Part shown: positions 6,488 to 16,202 of the stretch, one piece after another
Numbering within the stretch: the first letter of the stretch is position 1
Layout: each line of letters opens with the position of its first letter
NCBI GenBank assembly: GCA_028286945.1
Contig: JAQBQR010000023.1
Span: 1-37,182 of the forward strand
Length of the DNA stretch: 37,182 bases
Direction: 5' to 3'
Source of the DNA: Parcubacteria group bacterium
Lineage (GTDB): Bacteria > Patescibacteriota > Minisyncoccia > Phycocordibacterales > Phycocordibacteraceae
Made by a program: the position numbers and the translations under genes
The notes under the pieces: model-generated
What the model saw: the letters and a program-made list of their open reading frames with translations, nothing else
What the model was told of the DNA's origin: nothing
Database searches by the model: none

Positions 6488-7876
6488 ATGAAGACCATAC
6501 TTATTTCTATCTTCGATAGTAATATGGTGCGTAACATTTTGAGGACAGATGTGTTCCGGGTTCTTGTTGAAGATCCTGCTATTGAACGAATAGTTCTATT
6601 GGTGCATCCAACTAAGCTGGAGGTGTACACAAAGGAGTTTGGCGGAGGGAAAGTCGTTTTAGATACGTATCCTTCGAACCTCCCGTCTCGATATGAACTA
6701 GGAACTTGGTTTCTTCTTCGTCACGCGATTCATACAAAAAATGTGCGGGCAAAAATAAATGAGCTCCTATATACCTCAAAAGGTACCCGCAGTGCACGAT
6801 TCTTTAAATATATAGCCGCACTGATCGCTTTCTATGTAACATACCTCTGGCCAGTAGATTGGTTGTTACGAAAAGTTACCCGAGCGACACATCGTAGCAA
6901 ATTGTTTGCGCCGCTCATGAAAAAATATCAGCCGGATCTAGTCTTTCTTCCGACTATATTTGCGCATAATGATATTCGTCTATTGAAGTGGTGCGCTGAT
7001 CACGACGTCCCTACAATCGGAATGATTAAGAGTTGGGATAATTTGATTGGTAAAGATCCGCTCCTCGTATGGCCTGACCGTCTCATTGTTCATAATGAAC
7101 TTGTGCGTGAACTAGCTTGGAGCATGCATCGATTTCCGTACGACAGAATTTTTATAGGAGGTATTCCCCAAATGGACGTCTATGCGCAGCCTGCCACGAT
7201 TCCAAGTCGGACTGAGCTCTTTGAGAAATATCATCTTGATCAAAACAAACGACTAATCATGTATACCGCAGTGGGGCGGCTCATTTCGTATCATGAGCTC
7301 GAGGTCATTACCTACCTTGCAGATGTGGTGCACGCTCTTGCTGAACCTTCGCAGCTACTCGTCCGGCTCCATCCCGCATACCCCAGCGACGACGCTTCCG
7401 TCGAAGCCATTCCCGGTATTACGGTGGTGCGTCCGGGCATGGCGGGCGCGGAACGAAATCCGCTACGATTTGACTTTGAATTCCGCGATGAAGAAGTGCG
7501 CGACCTAATGGGAATGCTCGCGCATTCTGATGTAATTATTCAAAGCGGTTCAACTACGGCAATTGATGCGGCCTGTTTTGATACTCCCATTATTAGTCTT
7601 GGCTTTGACGGATATGCTAAAAATGTGCGCGAAGAAGAATCTGCGAGCCGGCTCCTTAAGAAGGATCATTTTGCGCGTATCGTTGCAACGGGTGGAACCC
7701 GTGCTGTCTATACTCCCGCAGAGCTGGAGGAAGCGCTTACGGCGTACCTTGCGAACCCCGCGCTTGACCATGCAGGGAGGGAAAAAATAGTTTCTGAGCA
7801 ATGTTATAAGCTCGATGGGAAATCCGGAGAACGAATCGGCTCCTATATTTCCTCAGTCATTTCTGAACTAACCTGA
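6488..7876 (+). CDS. GT-B-like surface carbohydrate protein (possible CDP-glycerol/capsule transferase-like)
   Basis: IRLLKWCADHDVPTIGMIKSWDNLIGKDPLLVWPDRLIVHNELV, IFIGGIPQMDVY, DVIIQSGSTTAIDAACFDTPIISLGFDG. Fold inferred from motifs only. Confidence 0.6.
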   Translation: MKTILISIFDSNMVRNILRTDVFRVLVEDPAIERIVLLVHPTKLEVYTKEFGGGKVVLDTYPSNLPSRYELGTWFLLRHAIHTKNVRAKINELLYTSKGTRSARFFKYIAALIAFYVTYLWPVDWLLRKVTRATHRSKLFAPLMKKYQPDLVFLPTIFAHNDIRLLKWCADHDVPTIGMIKSWDNLIGKDPLLVWPDRLIVHNELVRELAWSMHRFPYDRIFIGGIPQMDVYAQPATIPSRTELFEKYHLDQNKRLIMYTAVGRLISYHELEVITYLADVVHALAEPSQLLVRLHPAYPSDDASVEAIPGITVVRPGMAGAERNPLRFDFEFRDEEVRDLMGMLAHSDVIIQSGSTTAIDAACFDTPIISLGFDGYAKNVREEESASRLLKKDHFARIVATGGTRAVYTPAELEEALTAYLANPALDHAGREKIVSEQCYKLDGKSGERIGSYISSVISELT

Positions 7877-7920
7877 TTTTGAGGATAGTGGTGCCCAAGC
7901 TATAGTTACCAAATCAAGCT

Positions 7921-8658
7921 ATGAACCGAGATTCTATTGAAAATAAGGTCATTATTGTCACCGGGGGAAATGGGTTCCTGGGGTCTCAGTTCGTGCCCTA
8001 CCTCCAAAGTAAGGGCGCTATTGTAAAAGTCTTTGATCGCAGCGCGGACGCTGCCGTTGATATCACCAGTCCTTCAGAGGTTTCTCAGGCAGTAGCGGAA
8101 ATTGTAGAAGAACACGGACGTATTGATGGACTCGTACATACCGCTGCCCTTGATGCAGTGCCGGGTGCAGGGAACCCGCAGTTCTCACCCTATGAATCAT
8201 TCCCGCTTGAACTTTGGGAGCAGGAATTCAAGGTAAATCTCACTGCTGCGCAGATAGTCACTCAAGCAGTCGCGCCAATAATGATGAAGGCAAAGGCTGG
8301 AAGTATTGTTTTCATCGCATCAGATCTGGCAGTAATTGCTCCAGATAACACTCTTTATGAAAAAGGTCTCTTTAAAGATATTGCATACGTATCATCAAAA
8401 GCGGGAATGCTCGGACTGATGCGCGCGTGGGCAGCATACCTCGGTCCTTATAACGTGCGTTCAAATGCGCTAGTCCCTGGCGGAATGAAGAACACTCAAT
8501 CCGATGAGTTTGCGGCAAAGAATGGCTCGTTAAATATGCTGGGCCGAATGGCTGCGCCTGGAGAATATAACGAGACTATCGCATACATGCTTTCTGATGC
8601 CTCATCGTTCATGACGGGAAGTAACCTGGTTGTTGATGGCGGCAGAACCGCTCGATAA
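7921..8658 (+). CDS. Short-chain dehydrogenase/reductase
   Basis: VIIVTGGNGFLGSQFVPYLQSKGA, YVSSKAGMLGLMRAWAAYLGPYNVRSNALVPGGM, SNLVVDGGRTAR. Confidence 0.92.
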   Translation: MNRDSIENKVIIVTGGNGFLGSQFVPYLQSKGAIVKVFDRSADAAVDITSPSEVSQAVAEIVEEHGRIDGLVHTAALDAVPGAGNPQFSPYESFPLELWEQEFKVNLTAAQIVTQAVAPIMMKAKAGSIVFIASDLAVIAPDNTLYEKGLFKDIAYVSSKAGMLGLMRAWAAYLGPYNVRSNALVPGGMKNTQSDEFAAKNGSLNMLGRMAAPGEYNETIAYMLSDASSFMTGSNLVVDGGRTAR

Positions 8659-8661
8659 GAT

Positions 8662-9654
8662 ATGCGTTTCCTGATACAAGGCATCGGCTCAATTGGTCAG
8701 CGGCACTATCGCAACATCCGGGCGCTTGGTCACGAAGTAGCGGTACTCCGCACCAGCGGCATTGACCGGCCATTTGTACAGGCTTTTTTTGATAGCGAAC
8801 GAGAAGCGGGTAACGAACCTTTGGTGTTTCAAGATTTTGATACTGCACTAGCTGACTTTACCCCTGCAGCAATAGTTATTTGCACACCAAATCATCTGCA
8901 TCTGCAGGCAGCAATGAAGGCCGCAGAAGCGGGGCTTCATACTCTTATTGAAAAGCCGGTTCATCTAGAGCAAGAGGGGATCGATGCATTAGCACAGCTC
9001 GTAGCTGAGAAAAAAAGTACGGTACTCGTGGGGTATAACCTCAGATTCCATCCTCTGCTCGAACGAGTTAAATCAATGGTAGATAGTAAGGAACTGGGTT
9101 CTGTGCTTTCTGCATCGGTAGATGTTGGAGAAAATATTGAAGACTGGCATCCCTGGGAAGATTATCGTGATACCTATGCTCCCTATGAAGTATCGGGTGG
9201 GGGAAGTCTATTATGCTTCAGCCATGATATTGATTATCTATTCTGGTTGCTCGGATCGCCCGATGCAGTATTCGCAGGTGGCGGCAAGGTAACACCCTTA
9301 GAAGGTACCGCTGAAGATTTAGTCCAAGGATTGTGGAAATACCAGAATGGCGTAACTGCAATTCTTCACATTGATTATTGGCAGCGTCCTAAAGTGAGAA
9401 CATTGAAAATAGTTGGAACTAAAAAAACCATTGTATGGGATGCGTATACTAATCTTCAGATTTTTGACCATGAGTCTGGAAAGAGTGTCGTAGAGGAAGT
9501 GCCCGCAGGTTTCGACCGTAACAGTATGTTTATTGCCGAGGTGCAGCACTTTATTGACTGTATAGAAGGAAGGTCGAAACCTTTAATTCCCCTTAGTGAC
9601 GGAAAGAGCGTTGTTGAAATTATTGAACGAATGAAATCTTCACTTATATCATGA
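8662..9654 (+). CDS. Gfo/Idh/MocA-family oxidoreductase
   Basis: GIGSIGQRHYRNIRALGHEVAVLRT, VICTPNHLHLQAAMKAAEAGLHTLIEKPVHL. Confidence 0.92.
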   Translation: MRFLIQGIGSIGQRHYRNIRALGHEVAVLRTSGIDRPFVQAFFDSEREAGNEPLVFQDFDTALADFTPAAIVICTPNHLHLQAAMKAAEAGLHTLIEKPVHLEQEGIDALAQLVAEKKSTVLVGYNLRFHPLLERVKSMVDSKELGSVLSASVDVGENIEDWHPWEDYRDTYAPYEVSGGGSLLCFSHDIDYLFWLLGSPDAVFAGGGKVTPLEGTAEDLVQGLWKYQNGVTAILHIDYWQRPKVRTLKIVGTKKTIVWDAYTNLQIFDHESGKSVVEEVPAGFDRNSMFIAEVQHFIDCIEGRSKPLIPLSDGKSVVEIIERMKSSLIS

Positions 9655-10376
9655 ACACCACACACCCACCCCAAGTGCGAGTGTTAGCGATCATTCCTGC
9701 GCGTGGCGGGTCAAAGGGAATTCCACGAAAGAATCTGCTCCGCATAGGGGAGATACCTCTTGTTGGCTATGCGGTACGCGCAGCCAAAGCGGCTCATGGC
9801 GTTGACGCAGTAATTGTCTCAACGGACGATGAGGAGATTGCGAACGTTGCTCGAGAGTACGGTGCTGACGTCCCCTTTCTCCGTCCTGCGGAACTCGCTC
9901 AGGATACGTCGCGTGATATTGAAGCTTTGACTCATACCTTGGATTGGGTGAAGAAAGAGCGGGGGTGGGAACCGGAAATCGTATTGCTTCTTCCACCGAC
10001 ATCACCTTCGCGTATGAGTAGTGATATTGAAGCAGTTATTGCTCAAATGGATGAAACAGGCGCAGACTCGGTCCGTACTATGGTTCATCCTCCACACTGG
10101 AATCCGTATAAGATGTGGCGTGACGCGGGAGAGACCGGCGCTGTCCAGCCCATCCTGCCGCAAGGCGCATTAGCGGTGCCACGTCAGGAGCTTGATCGAC
10201 ATTACATGCCGGTGGGTATTGCCTATGCAATGCGGACCTCAAATATTCGAAAAGGAAGTATGTGGGGCGAAGATGTGCGCGTCCTCGAGATACCCCTCGC
10301 ACGCTATACTGACATTGATACTCCAGAAGATGTTGAGGAAGCGGAACGCGTTATGAAAGAGTACGGGATTATATGA
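9651..10376 (+). CDS. neuA: Acylneuraminate cytidylyltransferase family (CMP-nonulosonate synthetase)
   Basis: RVLAIIPARGGSKGIPRKNLLRIGEIPLVGYAVRAA, VIVSTDDEEIANVAREYGADVPFLRPAELAQDTS. Confidence 0.88.
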   Translation: MNTTHPPQVRVLAIIPARGGSKGIPRKNLLRIGEIPLVGYAVRAAKAAHGVDAVIVSTDDEEIANVAREYGADVPFLRPAELAQDTSRDIEALTHTLDWVKKERGWEPEIVLLLPPTSPSRMSSDIEAVIAQMDETGADSVRTMVHPPHWNPYKMWRDAGETGAVQPILPQGALAVPRQELDRHYMPVGIAYAMRTSNIRKGSMWGEDVRVLEIPLARYTDIDTPEDVEEAERVMKEYGII

Positions 10377-11590
10377 AAATACTTCACTTAGCAAACTGGA
10401 ACAGTACCAATATTGGGAATGGGGCCTTAATATATGGCACGCAACACATCATTGCAGAAGATTTTCCAGAGCCCGTGGAGTTCATCCCAGAAGCGTGGGA
10501 TGACTATACCTTTAAGCGTAAATTCTTTGATGAGAAATTTGTTGATCTGGTTAATCAGCACGACGCACTTTTGGTGAATGGAGCAGTAACGTTTAATGCC
10601 TTTCGTAAACAAATGCGAAATACGGGCATGCGCTTTGATCTGCCGCTCCCCCTGTGGGACGCCATTAAAAAACCAATTATTTTGTACGGACTTTCGTACC
10701 GCTGCTGGCCATTTCAAGCATACCCAAATAGCGGTGCTATGCGCCGCATGTTTGAATACGTCATACATTCTGAAAACATATATTTTGGCGTAAGAAACGA
10801 CGGTACAAAAGAATGGATCAAAGATCGATTTGGTATTGAATCAGATCGAATAAAAGAGATTCCTGATCCTGGTCTCTTTGTCCCGTATGAAGAGCATGAC
10901 TATCCAGAATTCACACCGGCCCGAAAAAATATAATGGTTGCCTTTAATGGCGAGGATCCAATATATCGCTTTGCAACTGGACTTGAACGATTTGTGATAA
11001 AAGCAGGGCAGGGCATTCTGAATCCAGAAAAGATAGATCGGCTAGTAACGCATTTTTCGGGATATAAAAAGGAACGGCATCGCATAATTAGTGAAATGGC
11101 TCGCGCGGTGGAACGCATTGCCGCGGAAGTAGATGCTCAATTTATTCTGGTCCCACACTACCTTGATGACTACGGAATGATTCAGGAATTTATAGAAGTG
11201 ATACAAGAACGCATCGCCCATCAGTTAGTGGTTACCACAGGATTGGTTGCTGTACCCCATACGGCGTATTTCTATGGTCGCTATAAGCAGGCTGACCTCG
11301 CCCTCTCAATGCGAGTTCATTCTATGTCTCCTTCGATTGGTCTCAATACGCCGGTTATTCCGGTAACGTCTCAGGGGCGAATGCGAAACTTCCTTAAAAA
11401 AGCGGGACTTAGTGATATTGGGGTAGATGTGTCACAAAAAGGTTTTGGAAAGGAGCTTGCAGAACGAGCTATTAAACTACTTAAGAGTCCAGAAGCTTTC
11501 AAAGAAGAATCACGAAAGGCGGTGGAAGTGATGAGAGAGACGTCACGTAAAAATAACGCAGACGTGTATCGTTTTATAACGAAAGAATAA
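10373..11590 (+). CDS. Polysaccharide pyruvyl transferase family protein
   Basis: N-terminal NWNSTNIGNGALIYGTQHII; C-terminal ADLALSMRVHSMSPSIGLNTPVIPVTSQGRMRNFLKKAGL. Confidence 0.8.
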   Translation: MKILHLANWNSTNIGNGALIYGTQHIIAEDFPEPVEFIPEAWDDYTFKRKFFDEKFVDLVNQHDALLVNGAVTFNAFRKQMRNTGMRFDLPLPLWDAIKKPIILYGLSYRCWPFQAYPNSGAMRRMFEYVIHSENIYFGVRNDGTKEWIKDRFGIESDRIKEIPDPGLFVPYEEHDYPEFTPARKNIMVAFNGEDPIYRFATGLERFVIKAGQGILNPEKIDRLVTHFSGYKKERHRIISEMARAVERIAAEVDAQFILVPHYLDDYGMIQEFIEVIQERIAHQLVVTTGLVAVPHTAYFYGRYKQADLALSMRVHSMSPSIGLNTPVIPVTSQGRMRNFLKKAGLSDIGVDVSQKGFGKELAERAIKLLKSPEAFKEESRKAVEVMRETSRKNNADVYRFITKE

Positions 11591-11607
11591 AAGCCCTCCA
11601 GGGCTTT
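11590..11607. terminator. Short hairpin between convergent genes
   Basis: Perfect inverted repeat AAAGCCCT-CC-AGGGCTTT directly after the 11590 stop and before the minus-strand HAD stop; U-tract is weak. Confidence 0.5.
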
Positions 11608-11619
11608 GATCCTTTCTAT

Positions 11620-12189
11620 TTACTGTGCAGGAAGCAAGAAAGGATCAATATTTCGAGCAGCAAGTATCATATTTGTGAAATCACGAATAGCGCCTTCTCC
11701 TCCATTACGTTCTGCAACAAACGTGCATAGGTCACGAATAGCTCGTTCAGCAGAGGCAGGAGCCGCCGGTAACGCCACCGTACGTAATAGAGGAACATCA
11801 ACCATGTCGTCACCCATAAAACCGGCGTCAGAAAAACTAAGCCCACGGCTCGCAAGGAATTCTTCTGCTGCCGCTGACTTTTGCTCACCTCCGCATCCTT
11901 CATACAGTACTATCGGCTCCCAACCATCACTCTGCTGCGGTTTTGAAGAGGGAAGTGAATTCCATTTTTCAACGGTGGTACGGATCGCATCCGCTGCCTG
12001 ATCCTTTTCGTTGGTAATAATAGCGATTCGAATTCCGATTGCGCGTAATAATGAAATACCTTGACCATCGTAATAACTTCGAGACTTCGCCATGAACGGT
12101 GCTCCCATAAGCACAGTGTTTGGAAAAATCACCCCATCAGAATCGAGAAATAGGACCTTTATGTTCTTTGCTGCGTTCTGGATGTCCAT
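11620..12189 (-). CDS. KdsC-like HAD-superfamily sugar-phosphate phosphatase
   Basis: KVLFLDSDGVIFPNTVLMG, LRAIGIRIAIITNEKDQAA, GFMGDDMVDVPLLRTVALPAAPASAERAIRDLCTFVAERNGGEGAIRDFTNMIL. Confidence 0.82.
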   Translation of the reverse strand: MDIQNAAKNIKVLFLDSDGVIFPNTVLMGAPFMAKSRSYYDGQGISLLRAIGIRIAIITNEKDQAADAIRTTVEKWNSLPSSKPQQSDGWEPIVLYEGCGGEQKSAAAEEFLASRGLSFSDAGFMGDDMVDVPLLRTVALPAAPASAERAIRDLCTFVAERNGGEGAIRDFTNMILAARNIDPFLLPAQ

Positions 12190-12260
12190 AATGATTCTTG
12201 AATTGTCTTACTCGTAAATTACGACTAAATATCGTCTATGTCAAAAAATAGATACAAAAA

Positions 12261-12296
12261 GGCCTGCATCCGGGGGGACGCAGGCCAAATTTTTTT
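12261..12296. terminator. Intrinsic terminator, probably bidirectional, downstream of neuB (-)
   Basis: GGCCTGC...GCAGGCC stem flanked by AAAAA on the left (U-run for the minus strand) and TTTTTTT on the right. Confidence 0.75.
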
Positions 12297-12310
12297 GAGG
12301 GTGTTTAGCC

Positions 12311-13279
12311 CTACACGCGGCGGAGCTTTTCCGCCACCGGACGTTCCTCGGGATAGAACACGATCTCGCCGTCGCCCATGACGATCGGAAGCTCGCGCAC
12401 CATGCGCACCAGGTCAGCGAGCGGACCTGGTTCGATGGACGCGCCCTGATCACTGCCATACCCGCCGCGCCAGAGCGTCACGTGCTTTTCGAGCACGCAC
12501 GCGCCCTTGACCGCCGCCGCGTACGCCGGCTGGATACCGAGGTCGTGTGACGAGAACCCGATGGGAACGCCGGGGAAGGTTTCCCGCAGCGTATCGATCC
12601 CGTTCAGGTTGATCAGCGAAAGGCCGCGGTCCATGTCATTCTGCTGAACCGTGGGATACACGCTCGTGCAGTGCAACAGGACCAGGTCTTTGGTGCCGAT
12701 CGCCGCCACCGCCGCTTCGATCATCGGAAGATCGGACATGCCGGTCGACAGAATGATCGGGCGACCCCTGCCACGAATATAGCGCAGCAAGTCGTGGTCC
12801 GTCAGGGATGCCGACGCCACCTTGTAGCAAGGCGGGTCGAAGTCTTCGAGGAAGTCGACCGAGGCCGCGTCCCAGGGGGAGGCGAACCACAGGATGCCGC
12901 GTTCGCGGCAATACGCATCGATCTCCGCATATTCGTCATGCGTCAGCTCGATGGCCTGCTTCTGGTCGCCGTTCGTGGTCGCGCCGAGCCCGTTGGTCGT
13001 GAGGCGCTCGACGCTTTCCGCCGAGAGCACGCCACGCTTCATGGCCAGCTCGATCACGTCCTCGGGCACCGCACGCGGCGCCGCGAGTTCCTCCGCCGTG
13101 TAGACGAGGTCCACCGTGCGTTTCTGGAACTTGACGGCATCGCAGCCGGCGGCAATCGCGATGTCGATCAATTTCATCGCGTGTTCGACATCGCCGTTAT
13201 GGTTGATGCCGATCTCGGCGATGATGAAGCAGGTGCCGGGGGCACCCACCTGGTGTGAGCCAATGGTAACGTGGGTCAT
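12311..13279 (-). CDS. neuB: NeuB-family nonulosonic acid synthase (TIM barrel; C-terminal SAF/antifreeze-like domain seems absent)
   Basis: FIIAEIGINHNGDVEHAMKLIDIAIAAGCDAVKFQKR, WFASPWDAASVDFLEDFDPPCYKVASASLTDHDLLRYI, PIILSTGMSD, IGFSSHDLG, VLEKHVTLWRGGYGSDQGASIEP. Confidence 0.9.
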   Translation of the reverse strand: MTHVTIGSHQVGAPGTCFIIAEIGINHNGDVEHAMKLIDIAIAAGCDAVKFQKRTVDLVYTAEELAAPRAVPEDVIELAMKRGVLSAESVERLTTNGLGATTNGDQKQAIELTHDEYAEIDAYCRERGILWFASPWDAASVDFLEDFDPPCYKVASASLTDHDLLRYIRGRGRPIILSTGMSDLPMIEAAVAAIGTKDLVLLHCTSVYPTVQQNDMDRGLSLINLNGIDTLRETFPGVPIGFSSHDLGIQPAYAAAVKGACVLEKHVTLWRGGYGSDQGASIEPGPLADLVRMVRELPIVMGDGEIVFYPEERPVAEKLRRV

Positions 13280-13292
13280 CTTCTTCTCTCCT

Positions 13293-13865
13293 TTAGAGCA
13301 GTGTGTCTAGTGCTTCGCACCAGATGTGGATGATGAGGTCATGGACCTCCTGGATACGCGCCGTTACAGGACTGACGACCGGAATCGTGCAGTCGGTTAT
13401 TAGTGCGAGATCGGCACCGAGTGTGCCGGTCACGGCAATAACTCCGATACCGCGCTCGCGCGCGACATCGATTGCTTTTAACACGTTCGGCGACCTGCCG
13501 CTCGTGGTGAAGCAAATGAGTACATCGCCCGCAACTCCCAGACCTTCGAGCTCGCGCGCGAAAACCTGGTCATATCCGTAGTCGTTGCCGACAGCGGTTA
13601 TGGTCGAAAGGCATGAGCCGAGCGCGACCGCACGAAGCGGACCACGTTCCTTCTTATATCTGCCGACGAGCTCGGCAATGAAATGGGCCGCCGTTGCCGA
13701 CGAACCACCATTGCCACAGGCAAAAACGGTCTGCCCACCCAAAACAGCCTTGCTGATGAGAGCGAACCCATCGTCAACCTCTTTCGAGTGTTGTTCTAGG
13801 GTTGCGGTTGCGGCGTGGACAAGCCATTTCACCGCTTCCTTTCCTACGTCTGAAGCGATCGTCAT
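13293..13865 (-). CDS. gmhA: GmhA-like sedoheptulose-7-phosphate isomerase (SIS domain)
   Basis: VFACGNGGSSATAAHFIAELVGRYKKERGPLRAVALGSCLSTITAVGNDYGYDQVFARELEGLGVAGDVLICFTTSGRSPNVLKAIDVARERG. Confidence 0.9.
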   Translation of the reverse strand: MTIASDVGKEAVKWLVHAATATLEQHSKEVDDGFALISKAVLGGQTVFACGNGGSSATAAHFIAELVGRYKKERGPLRAVALGSCLSTITAVGNDYGYDQVFARELEGLGVAGDVLICFTTSGRSPNVLKAIDVARERGIGVIAVTGTLGADLALITDCTIPVVSPVTARIQEVHDLIIHIWCEALDTLL

Positions 13866-13914: not shown

Positions 13915-14024
13915 GACCCAGTGTGATTTTACCTATTCTGCATGAAAAGTCAATTCGTCATAATGTCGCACCACAGGGGCACTTCTTATTTTCTAACCAG
14001 CTGACTGGTAAGAAAATAATGTCG

Positions 14025-14030
14025 TATACT
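14025..14030 (+). promoter_or_regulatory. Putative -10 box TATACT of the O-antigen ligase gene
   Basis: TATACT, 9 nt before the ATG at 14040; CTGACT 18 nt upstream as a possible -35. Confidence 0.5.
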
Positions 14031-14039
14031 ATCCTCATT

Positions 14040-16202
14040 ATGACCACCAAAACCATCGCGCGCTGGGTGACCATTGGGGCCCTCTTTATTATTCCGTTCC
14101 TGGGGCTCTATGTGGCTAACTCAATGTATTTCCCGTTTATTACCGGTAAAAACTTTGGATTCCGTATATTGGTTGAAATAGCCTTTGCAGGTTATTTGGT
14201 ACTTATTGCATGTGATAAGCGATACCGTCCTCGTTTTTCATGGACACTTGTTTGGTATAAGGCACTCGCGATCTGGATGATTCTTGCGAATATCCTTGCG
14301 GTAAATCCCCATAAGGGCTTTTGGAGTAACTATGAACGTATGGACGGATGGGTAACGCTCGCGCATCTCGTCATTCTTCTCGTGGTTATGTCTGCTGTGC
14401 TCTCTGCGGAAAATTTGTGGCGCAAGTGGTGGCTTGCCTTCATCGCAGGAAATGCGTTGGTTTGTGTGTATGGTCTTGCACAGATGCTCGGGCTTGCCGC
14501 AATTCATCAAGGCTCAACACGTATCGATGCCAGCATCGGTAACGCTGAATATTTCGCCGGATATCTTTTGTTCGCTATTGCGGTCACGCTATGGCAAGCA
14601 CTTGAGACGCGCGCAAAGAATCAGCTTTGGTTGCGCTATTCGCTATTCGTACTCGCTGCCGTTCAATTTGTCTTGCTCTTCGAGACAGGAACGCGCGGTA
14701 CGCTCATCGGCCTTGTGGCAGGCGCAGCATTCGGAAGTGTGCTCTGGATGCTTGAAGCAGGGAAGCAGGGACGAAAGGTTGCGGGCAGCGTGCTCGTGAT
14801 ACTAATTGTCATCGTTGGCGGACTGTTCGCGGTAAAGGATCTTCCCTCGGTGCGACAGAATGAAAATATAAACCGTCTCACCTCAGTCTTCTCACTTAAA
14901 GAAGCGCTCGGTCCACGTATCACCATCTGGCACATGGCCGTGGAAGGTATTAAAGAAAAGCCACTTACCGGATGGGGACAGGAAGGCTACAACTATGTCT
15001 TCAATAAATATTACGAACCAAGCCTCTACTCACAGGAACAATGGTTCGATCGCGCTCACAACACGTTTCTCGACTGGGCCGTTGCCGGAGGTATCCCTGC
15101 GCTCGTTCTGTTCTTGCTTGCACTCATAAGCGCAGCAGTTGCGCTGTACCGCGCACCCATATCGCGCTTTGAACGTATCTTTTTGCTCTCAGCGCTTGTT
15201 GCGTATGTGATTCAGGGATTGGTGGTGTTCGATAACCTTCTAACGTATTTGCCGCTTGTTGCCATCCTTGGTATGGCGCACATGGCGTCTTCGCGCCCGA
15301 TACGCATGATGGAAAATATGCGTGAGATTAATGACACCAAACTCGACACGCTTGTCGCGCCTGCGGCGCTCGTCGTCGGAGGTCTTCTCATCTGGTTCGT
15401 GAACGTGCCGTCCGTGATGGCAAGCATGCATCTCATTGACGCGGTTACGCCGTCAAATACGCCTGACGCTCGTCTTGCTTCCTTCAAGCAAACCGTGGGC
15501 GACAACGGTCTGGCACACCAAGAAGAGGTGGAACAGCTGCTAACGTTCGCCTCGCAGGAAGCAACGGATTCTGGAGCATCCCAAGAAACGCGTCAGGCAA
15601 TTGTCGATTTCGCAGGTGCACAAATGAATGCAGAACTTCTGCGCGCACCAACGGATGCCCGCCTCCATCTTCAGTACGCGCTCTTCTTCCGTACTCTCGC
15701 TGACTTCAAAGATGCAGAGCAAGAGAGTGGCATCGCGCACCAACTATCACCTAATAAGCAATCAATCCTTACCGAACGTGGAATTGAGTTTTTCCAGGCG
15801 AAGGATTTCGTTTCAGCGAAGAACTACTTCACGCAGGCATACGAACTCGATACGAGTAATAAAGATGCTGCAGCGTACGTAGCGGGAGCTGACATTGCGA
15901 CTAACGACGTGGCAGGAGGTAAGGCAATTCTTCAAAAGGTATACGGAACAACGGCCATCAACCATCCGATGCTCATCGTTGCGTACTATCAGATTAAAGA
16001 TTGGAAAGATCTCATTGAAGTATTGAAGCTTAAGTATCAGGCTGAGAATACTGTCACTAACGGATTCCAGATTGCCGCTGCGTACCTTGAGTCAGGAGAT
16101 AAGACAAATGCTATTGCTCAGATTCGCGCCGTTGTGGCAGCGCATCCAGAAGCAGCTGCGCAAGGAACCGCGATTCTTCAGCAGCTAGGAGTAGCGCCGT
16201 AA
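14040..16202 (+). CDS. O-antigen ligase (WaaL)-family membrane protein with C-terminal TPR-like region
   Basis: Multiple TM segments; TGTRGTLIGLVAGAAFG, GPRITIWHMAVEGIKEKPLTGWGQEGYNYVF, WFDRAHNTFLDWAVAGGIPALVLF; helical repeat tail. Start moved to the in-frame ATG at 14040, just after TATACT. Confidence 0.85.
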   Translation: MTTKTIARWVTIGALFIIPFLGLYVANSMYFPFITGKNFGFRILVEIAFAGYLVLIACDKRYRPRFSWTLVWYKALAIWMILANILAVNPHKGFWSNYERMDGWVTLAHLVILLVVMSAVLSAENLWRKWWLAFIAGNALVCVYGLAQMLGLAAIHQGSTRIDASIGNAEYFAGYLLFAIAVTLWQALETRAKNQLWLRYSLFVLAAVQFVLLFETGTRGTLIGLVAGAAFGSVLWMLEAGKQGRKVAGSVLVILIVIVGGLFAVKDLPSVRQNENINRLTSVFSLKEALGPRITIWHMAVEGIKEKPLTGWGQEGYNYVFNKYYEPSLYSQEQWFDRAHNTFLDWAVAGGIPALVLFLLALISAAVALYRAPISRFERIFLLSALVAYVIQGLVVFDNLLTYLPLVAILGMAHMASSRPIRMMENMREINDTKLDTLVAPAALVVGGLLIWFVNVPSVMASMHLIDAVTPSNTPDARLASFKQTVGDNGLAHQEEVEQLLTFASQEATDSGASQETRQAIVDFAGAQMNAELLRAPTDARLHLQYALFFRTLADFKDAEQESGIAHQLSPNKQSILTERGIEFFQAKDFVSAKNYFTQAYELDTSNKDAAAYVAGADIATNDVAGGKAILQKVYGTTAINHPMLIVAYYQIKDWKDLIEVLKLKYQAENTVTNGFQIAAAYLESGDKTNAIAQIRAVVAAHPEAAAQGTAILQQLGVAP

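Follow-up and report, generated by a model that had tools for sequence, protein, structure and literature searches.

The window analysed here is the whole of a 37,182-nucleotide stretch from a Parcubacteria group bacterium (contig JAQBQR010000023.1 of assembly GCA_028286945.1), and our subject is a set of genes within it grouped around a NeuB-like, phosphoenolpyruvate (PEP)-condensing synthase that lacks the SAF domain. Plus-strand genes running from an SDR-family oxidoreductase to a pyruvyltransferase converge on a minus-strand run of gmhA, neuB and a HAD phosphatase gene, and the polysaccharide island around the set also encodes glycosyltransferases, methyltransferases and a flippase, along with an O-antigen ligase family protein. 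An earlier note on this DNA had claimed NeuA, NeuB, KdsC-like HAD, GmhA, SDR and Gfo/Idh proteins; all six are present at the following positions, and every open reading frame is intact:

7921..8658, plus strand: SDR-family oxidoreductase, by family match; probably sugar tailoring
8662..9654, plus strand: Gfo/Idh/MocA oxidoreductase, by family match; probably tailoring together with the SDR protein
9651..10376, plus strand: NeuA/PseF-like CMP-ulosonate cytidylyltransferase; best NCBIfam match PseF
10373..11590, plus strand: polysaccharide pyruvyltransferase family protein (PF04230), unlisted in the earlier note
11620..12189, minus strand: KdsC-like HAD phosphatase, 121 bp downstream of neuB; matches the KdsC family and the phosphatase family of 2-keto-3-deoxynononic acid 9-phosphate (KDN-9-P)
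12311..13279, minus strand: neuB-like PEP-condensing synthase of 322 aa (PF03102, E=2.8e-64), no SAF domain, KFQKRT motif
13293..13865, minus strand: gmhA, an SIS_2 protein of the sedoheptulose-7-phosphate isomerase type, heading the minus-strand run 13 bp ahead of neuB
13923..16202, plus strand: O-antigen ligase/polymerase (Wzy_C) family protein, island context; homologues lie near neuB genes of the same clade in many relatives

The CMP-transferase scored 135 bits against the PseF NCBIfam model, below its cut-off of 205.7. The HAD protein scored 68-71 bits against the KdsC and KDN-9-P phosphatase families, also below the cut-offs, and retains all of the motifs DSDG, TN, K and GDD; its subtype, which carries an insert, was found also at loci L103, L106, L118 and L144 (loci compared here have L numbers, and genomes G numbers). 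An Rfam scan of the window gave no match.

The synthase departs from canonical NeuB in that it lacks a SAF domain, carries the KFQKRT motif and belongs to a separate clade. The protein stops at the end of the barrel, a few residues past the equivalent of position 285 of 349 in 1xuu (Neisseria meningitidis NeuB), which has about 60 more residues including R314, the residue mutated in structures 4ipi and 4ipj. C-terminal tails measure 1-17 aa in the clade versus 57-96 aa in SAF types. Window residues H245, H266, D277 and E22 align with H215, H236, D247 and E25 of the N. meningitidis enzyme, which we take to be its metal-site residues, and these positions are invariant or nearly so across the clade. 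KFQKR after strand 2 is likewise invariant in the clade, nearly always followed by T; the same position reads KHQTH in 1xuu and KFQAY in 6ncs. In the window protein the loop following strand 2 is lengthened (about residues 70-100). Because the residues after the corresponding lysine bind the acceptor phosphate in the related 3-deoxy-D-arabino-heptulosonate 7-phosphate (DAHP) and 3-deoxy-D-manno-octulosonate 8-phosphate (Kdo-8-P) synthases, K53, R54 and T55 are, by analogy, candidates for phosphate binding. The AlphaFold model of the synthase (predicted local distance difference test, pLDDT, 90.8; predicted template modelling score, pTM, 0.89) is a NeuB-type barrel whose structural neighbours are, in order, 6ncs (a SAF-less Leptospira synthase), NeuB and PseI, and the DAHP and Kdo-8-P synthases. 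Separately, L049, L050 and L122 encode NeuB-family proteins with a KFQMR motif and about 340 extra C-terminal residues.

To place this synthase among its relatives, NeuB-family loci were gathered by searching with the window protein over genomes of its order (297), class (384) and phylum (380), with plasmid and phage records added; a one-protein scan of genome contigs yielded a single distant archaeal locus. A tree of 102 synthases places all SAF-less proteins but a single long-branched row in one group, which has 48 members and a Shimodaira-Hasegawa-like approximate likelihood ratio test (SH-aLRT) support of 92. Its sister consists of 11 SAF-bearing proteins, mostly with KFQKR/KFQRR and GYSGH (support for the union, 97), and some of these also have a HAD, GmhA, transketolase or histidine phosphatase gene nearby (L142, L151, L159, L045).

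Neighbouring genes were detected with hidden Markov models built for this analysis, and the synthases were sorted by C-terminal tail length into 49 SAF-less and 50 SAF-type proteins. By Fisher tests, whose p values ignore kinship, a HAD gene within 4 kb accompanies 19/49 SAF-less versus 2/50 SAF-type synthases (p 1.7e-5), and gmhA lies within 1.5 kb of 11/49 versus 1/50 (p 0.0018). The reverse holds for neuC within 1.5 kb, with 1/49 SAF-less versus 21/50 SAF-type (p 9e-7), and neuA is found near both types alike (20 and 21, respectively). Where a single island holds both synthase types (L039, L104, L106), the SAF-type gene is beside neuC and the SAF-less gene beside its own neuA, HAD or gmhA genes.

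The genes of the window also recur together elsewhere. At L116, in a genome of another order, NeuB, GmhA, HAD, SDR, NeuA and pyruvyltransferase genes follow one another on one strand, i.e., the window set minus Gfo/Idh. The run at L119 reads GmhA-NeuB-SDR-SDR-TIM followed by a NeuA-HAD fusion, and L145 combines NeuB and GmhA with a HAD-bearing protein whose length would fit such a fusion. GmhA is also beside NeuB at L037, L106, L109, L110, L113, L142 and L143; Gfo/Idh and SDR genes recur near NeuA/NeuB at L100, L106 and L113, and pyruvyltransferase homologues lie near clade NeuB genes at L036 and L116. Besides L119, NeuA-HAD fusions occur at L039 and L057 (Azospirillum thermophilum), in both cases adjoining a synthase, and at L054 of Nonomuraea gerenzanensis (6636-8861, plus strand) NeuA, a KdsC-like HAD and a SAF-less NeuB share a single open frame, apparently encoding a trifunctional enzyme. 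Clade synthases of these two organisms and of Methylomagnum, all cultured, belong to related subtypes. A histidine phosphatase sits between synthase and NeuA at L042 and near both at L045, which fits a swap of one phosphatase for another.

The product of the synthase is probably phosphorylated, because a phosphatase is tied to it as in the KDN pathway, where a phosphatase acts on the phosphorylated intermediate made by its partner synthase (PMC6200933), and as in the synthase-phosphatase fusion of Leptospira interrogans, for which a phosphorylated product has been argued (PMC3438082). We consider it quite probable that the acceptor is phosphorylated and that the gene set works as one pathway. 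The earlier note had called the pathway non-canonical, i.e., not of the N-acetylneuraminic (Neu5Ac), legionaminic (Leg) or pseudaminic (Pse) acid type, and had suggested that a phosphorylated aldose is condensed with PEP; both proposals find good support in architecture and phylogeny, in the neighbour statistics and in the fusions.

We read the window set as a variant on phosphorylated ulosonate pathways already described. By description, the KDN pathway of Bacteroides thetaiotaomicron and Prymnesium parvum shares PEP condensation via a phosphorylated intermediate, a KdsC-like HAD and CMP activation, whereas here the synthase is coupled to GmhA and a heptose-7-phosphate (heptose-7-P) acceptor is suspected. 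The Kdo pathway (KdsD, KdsA, KdsC, KdsB) offers an SIS-domain sugar-phosphate isomerase, a PEP-condensing barrel, a KdsC-like HAD and a CMP-transferase; in contrast, the window encodes a NeuB-family synthase (PF03102), a GmhA-type isomerase and a NeuA/PseF-type CMP-transferase. Leptospira provides a SAF-less barrel (6ncs) and, in the L. interrogans fusion, a synthase with its phosphatase attached, but identity to 6ncs is 28%, the motif there is KFQAY, not KFQKRT, and GmhA coupling has not been reported. With canonical NeuB/LegI/PseI the window shares the NeuB and NeuA families and, by alignment, the metal-site residues, and it differs in having no SAF domain, no NeuC and an added HAD phosphatase.

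We propose that the genes form one pathway that would make a CMP-activated ulosonic acid for a surface polysaccharide via phosphorylated intermediates, as the Kdo and KDN routes do. The SAF-less synthase would condense heptose-7-P with PEP to 3-deoxy-dec-2-ulosonate-10-phosphate, the HAD enzyme would take off the phosphate, and the NeuA-like enzyme would form the CMP-sugar; the SDR and Gfo/Idh proteins would probably alter a hydroxyl stereocentre before or after these steps, a guess that stems from the repeated presence of their genes. The comparative data support the linkage of the genes into one set, a synthase clade that goes with a phosphatase and stands apart from canonical NeuB, and the coupling to GmhA; from these we infer the acceptor, the ten-carbon product and the tailoring. 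The whole chain, heptose-7-P acceptor and ten-carbon ulosonate included, is put forward tentatively, as possible rather than probable.

The case for heptose-7-P begins with GmhA itself. The window protein matches PF13580 and phosphoheptose isomerase families (E=2.2e-53); TIGR00441 is its second-best family, behind another phosphoheptose isomerase model, at 162.7 bits against a cut-off of 209.45, and the L113 homologue, at 212.2 bits, exceeds that cut-off. The NeuB-linked GmhA proteins score highest with phosphoheptose isomerase families rather than with KdsD or phosphoglucose/phosphomannose isomerase (PGI/PMI). The zinc ligands H64, E68, Q175 and H183, which are said to be completely conserved among GmhA orthologues (PMC5705639), are retained at the equivalent positions of the window protein and its NeuB-linked homologues, unlike in the SIS proteins next to GHMP kinases at L168 and L167, which do not have them.

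The window's assembly (G000; 715,773 bases, 86.4% complete, a figure that bounds every absence in it) encodes a single NeuB, a single SIS_2 protein, which is the window GmhA, and one transketolase N-domain match. No GmhB, HldE domain II or GHMP kinase was found in it, and the HldE domain-I model gave only ribokinase-like traces of 18-32 bits, so that the absence of HldE and GmhB claimed for the window extends to the assembly and the nucleotide-heptose pathway (HldE or HddA, GmhB) lacks its heptokinase and GmhB there. Given the incompleteness of G000, the absence arguments rest mainly on near-complete relatives. We compared the 11 genomes with GmhA beside a SAF-less synthase: no heptokinase (GHMP kinase or HldE-like) was detected in five (G000, G264, G735, G380, G434) and no GmhB match in seven (G000, G735, G880, G757, G380, G609, G434); the completeness of G735, G380 and G434 is rated at 100%. 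Because these enzymes were not detected there, D-glycero-D-manno-heptose-7-P would have no evident use in those genomes but as the acceptor.

Several observations weigh against this proposal. GmhA adjoins only a minority of clade NeuBs (11/49). The SAF-less label amounts to two changes on the tree, which the Fisher tests disregard, and independent-pair tests had only two contrasts and thus no power. The GmhA of L116 (G735; 8696-9306, minus strand) is split over two frames, by frameshift or sequencing error. We know of no ten-carbon ulosonic acid of this kind, and a literature search returned nothing relevant on the gene set, on Patescibacteria with NeuB or on ten-carbon ulosonic acids. The window GmhA has Thr where D61 stands, and the D61 Ala mutant of Burkholderia pseudomallei GmhA retains about 6% activity (PMC5705639). 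G708, G935 and G900 also carry GmhB and/or heptokinase-like genes, and GmhA could serve ordinary heptose there. Lastly, the bifunctional PGI/PMI family was not found in G000, G380, G609 or G434, and in these genomes GmhA might act on fructose-6-phosphate.

That last point speaks for a KDN-type, nine-carbon pathway, in which PEP would be condensed with mannose-6-phosphate (Man-6-P) or another hexose-6-phosphate, the HAD would dephosphorylate the product, NeuA would activate it, and GmhA would be a phosphomannose isomerase acting on fructose-6-phosphate or be present for some other reason. Characterised KDN-9-P synthases do take Man-6-P, followed by a KdsC-like phosphatase (PMC6200933), and the window HAD scores 68 bits against the KDN-9-P phosphatase family. 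However, the isomerase recurring by the synthase is of the GmhA type, not a hexose isomerase; a second Man-6-P isomerase would be superfluous in 7/11 genomes because these already have a separate PGI/PMI copy; and the GmhA coupling goes unexplained unless the substrate of GmhA has changed. We regard this pathway as rather unlikely, though it is the chief rival of the ten-carbon reading. Because of the GmhA coupling, the heptokinase and GmhB gaps and the PGI/PMI copies in 7/11 genomes, heptose-7-P ranks first and Man-6-P second as putative acceptor. The ten-carbon ulosonate raised in the earlier note as one possibility is now, tentatively, the best single reading.

Two pathways might instead run side by side, a phosphorylated-intermediate ulosonate route (NeuB, HAD, NeuA) and a heptose route begun by GmhA, both feeding one polysaccharide. 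This would suit G935, G900 and G708, which besides GmhA by NeuB hold GmhB and/or heptokinase candidates, and G827, where an SIS protein with a GHMP kinase and GmhB lies some 7 kb from NeuB. It suits less well the five genomes with no heptokinase candidate, three of them complete, the SIS proteins by GHMP kinases without the zinc ligands that NeuB-linked GmhAs keep, and the occurrence of GmhA near just 1/50 SAF-type NeuBs in similar islands. Since the set recurs at L116, and GmhA lies by this NeuB in 11 loci and at least five viral-collection contigs, the earlier suggestion of two unrelated pathways is improbable. Still less likely is a pathway like that to Neu5Ac-9-phosphate with an N-acetylmannosamine-6-phosphate acceptor, the route that animals use and that has been proposed for L. 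interrogans: the NeuB-phosphatase fusion in Leptospira (PMC3438082) is a precedent and, among solved structures, the SAF-less Leptospira synthase 6ncs comes nearest, but no NeuC-family epimerase was found in G000 and almost none near the clade, no source of N-acetylmannosamine was seen, and GmhA is left unexplained. A canonical unphosphorylated nonulosonate pathway, with NeuC and Leg/Pse genes in the missing part of the 86%-complete assembly and with HAD and GmhA incidental, is extremely improbable, as the clade has no SAF domain, stands phylogenetically apart from the NeuBs linked to NeuC and, over many near-complete genomes, goes together with HAD and GmhA; the lack of NeuC noted for the window holds throughout the assembly, where the check for a canonical pathway elsewhere found one NeuB only and no Epimerase_2 match.

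With heptose-7-P as the favoured acceptor of the window synthase, the clade may still be mixed in its chemistry. After KFQKRT, the loop of the window protein reads ..VYT.EEL..PRE..FG.TNGDLKR.LEF (type I), and that of a subclade of 10 (support 99) reads ..CVP..Q....TPWG.MTY..Y...EF (type II). Every SAF-less synthase that has GmhA at 1.5 kb or less (11 in total) is type I. Transketolase N/C pairs at 4 kb or less from a SAF-less synthase (L055, L118, L141, L144) accompany type II in each case; because the partners divide in this way, the two types would seem to use different acceptors. The type II pairs are also next to HAD genes, and in L118 the pair is fused. The GmhA-neighbour label changes 11 times on the NeuB tree and gene order varies between loci, which rules out a frozen-operon account; the link between GmhA and NeuB has been gained or lost repeatedly.

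Two other kinds of protein were seen near these synthases. A large radical-SAM protein (about 550-620 aa), which may modify the sugar or its carrier, is encoded near SAF-less NeuB and NeuA at L040, L101, L107-L111, L114, L115 and L118, and the one at L040 has a weak B12-binding match. At L034 (5428-7665, minus strand) a 745-aa protein that joins a pyruvate-kinase barrel to PUA-like and ATP-sulfurylase domains adjoins a sulfotransferase and the nearest relative of the window NeuB.

The synthase also extends beyond cellular genomes. An IMG/VR scan returned at least 558 relatives, and neighbourhoods were kept for 80 of them (L172-L251), the contigs being taken as viral by collection label. SAF-less NeuB occurs in hundreds of these contigs, often with NeuA and in some with GmhA or HAD; gmhA lies 5-8 bp from neuB at L172 and L183 and nearby at L192, L240 and L247, and for the synthases examined among the 80, no NeuC turned up nearby. 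Marine virus AG-345-L05 (L058), a marine Kyanoviridae genome, likewise encodes a SAF-less NeuB. Surface-sugar genes may be common cargo of phages, and a pathway from D-glycero-D-manno-heptose-7-P and PEP to a ten-carbon 3-deoxy-dec-2-ulosonic acid might, we suggest with some reserve, be widespread in small-genome bacteria and viral-collection contigs.

Because SAF-less KFQKRT synthases carry the annotation N-acetylneuraminate synthase, surveys that tally "sialic acid" among environmental bacteria and phages are probably counting another chemistry. If heptose-7-P is indeed the acceptor, cell surfaces would bear a new size class of ulosonic acid, and the series C7 (DAHP), C8 (Kdo) and C9 (sialic acids) would gain one carbon.

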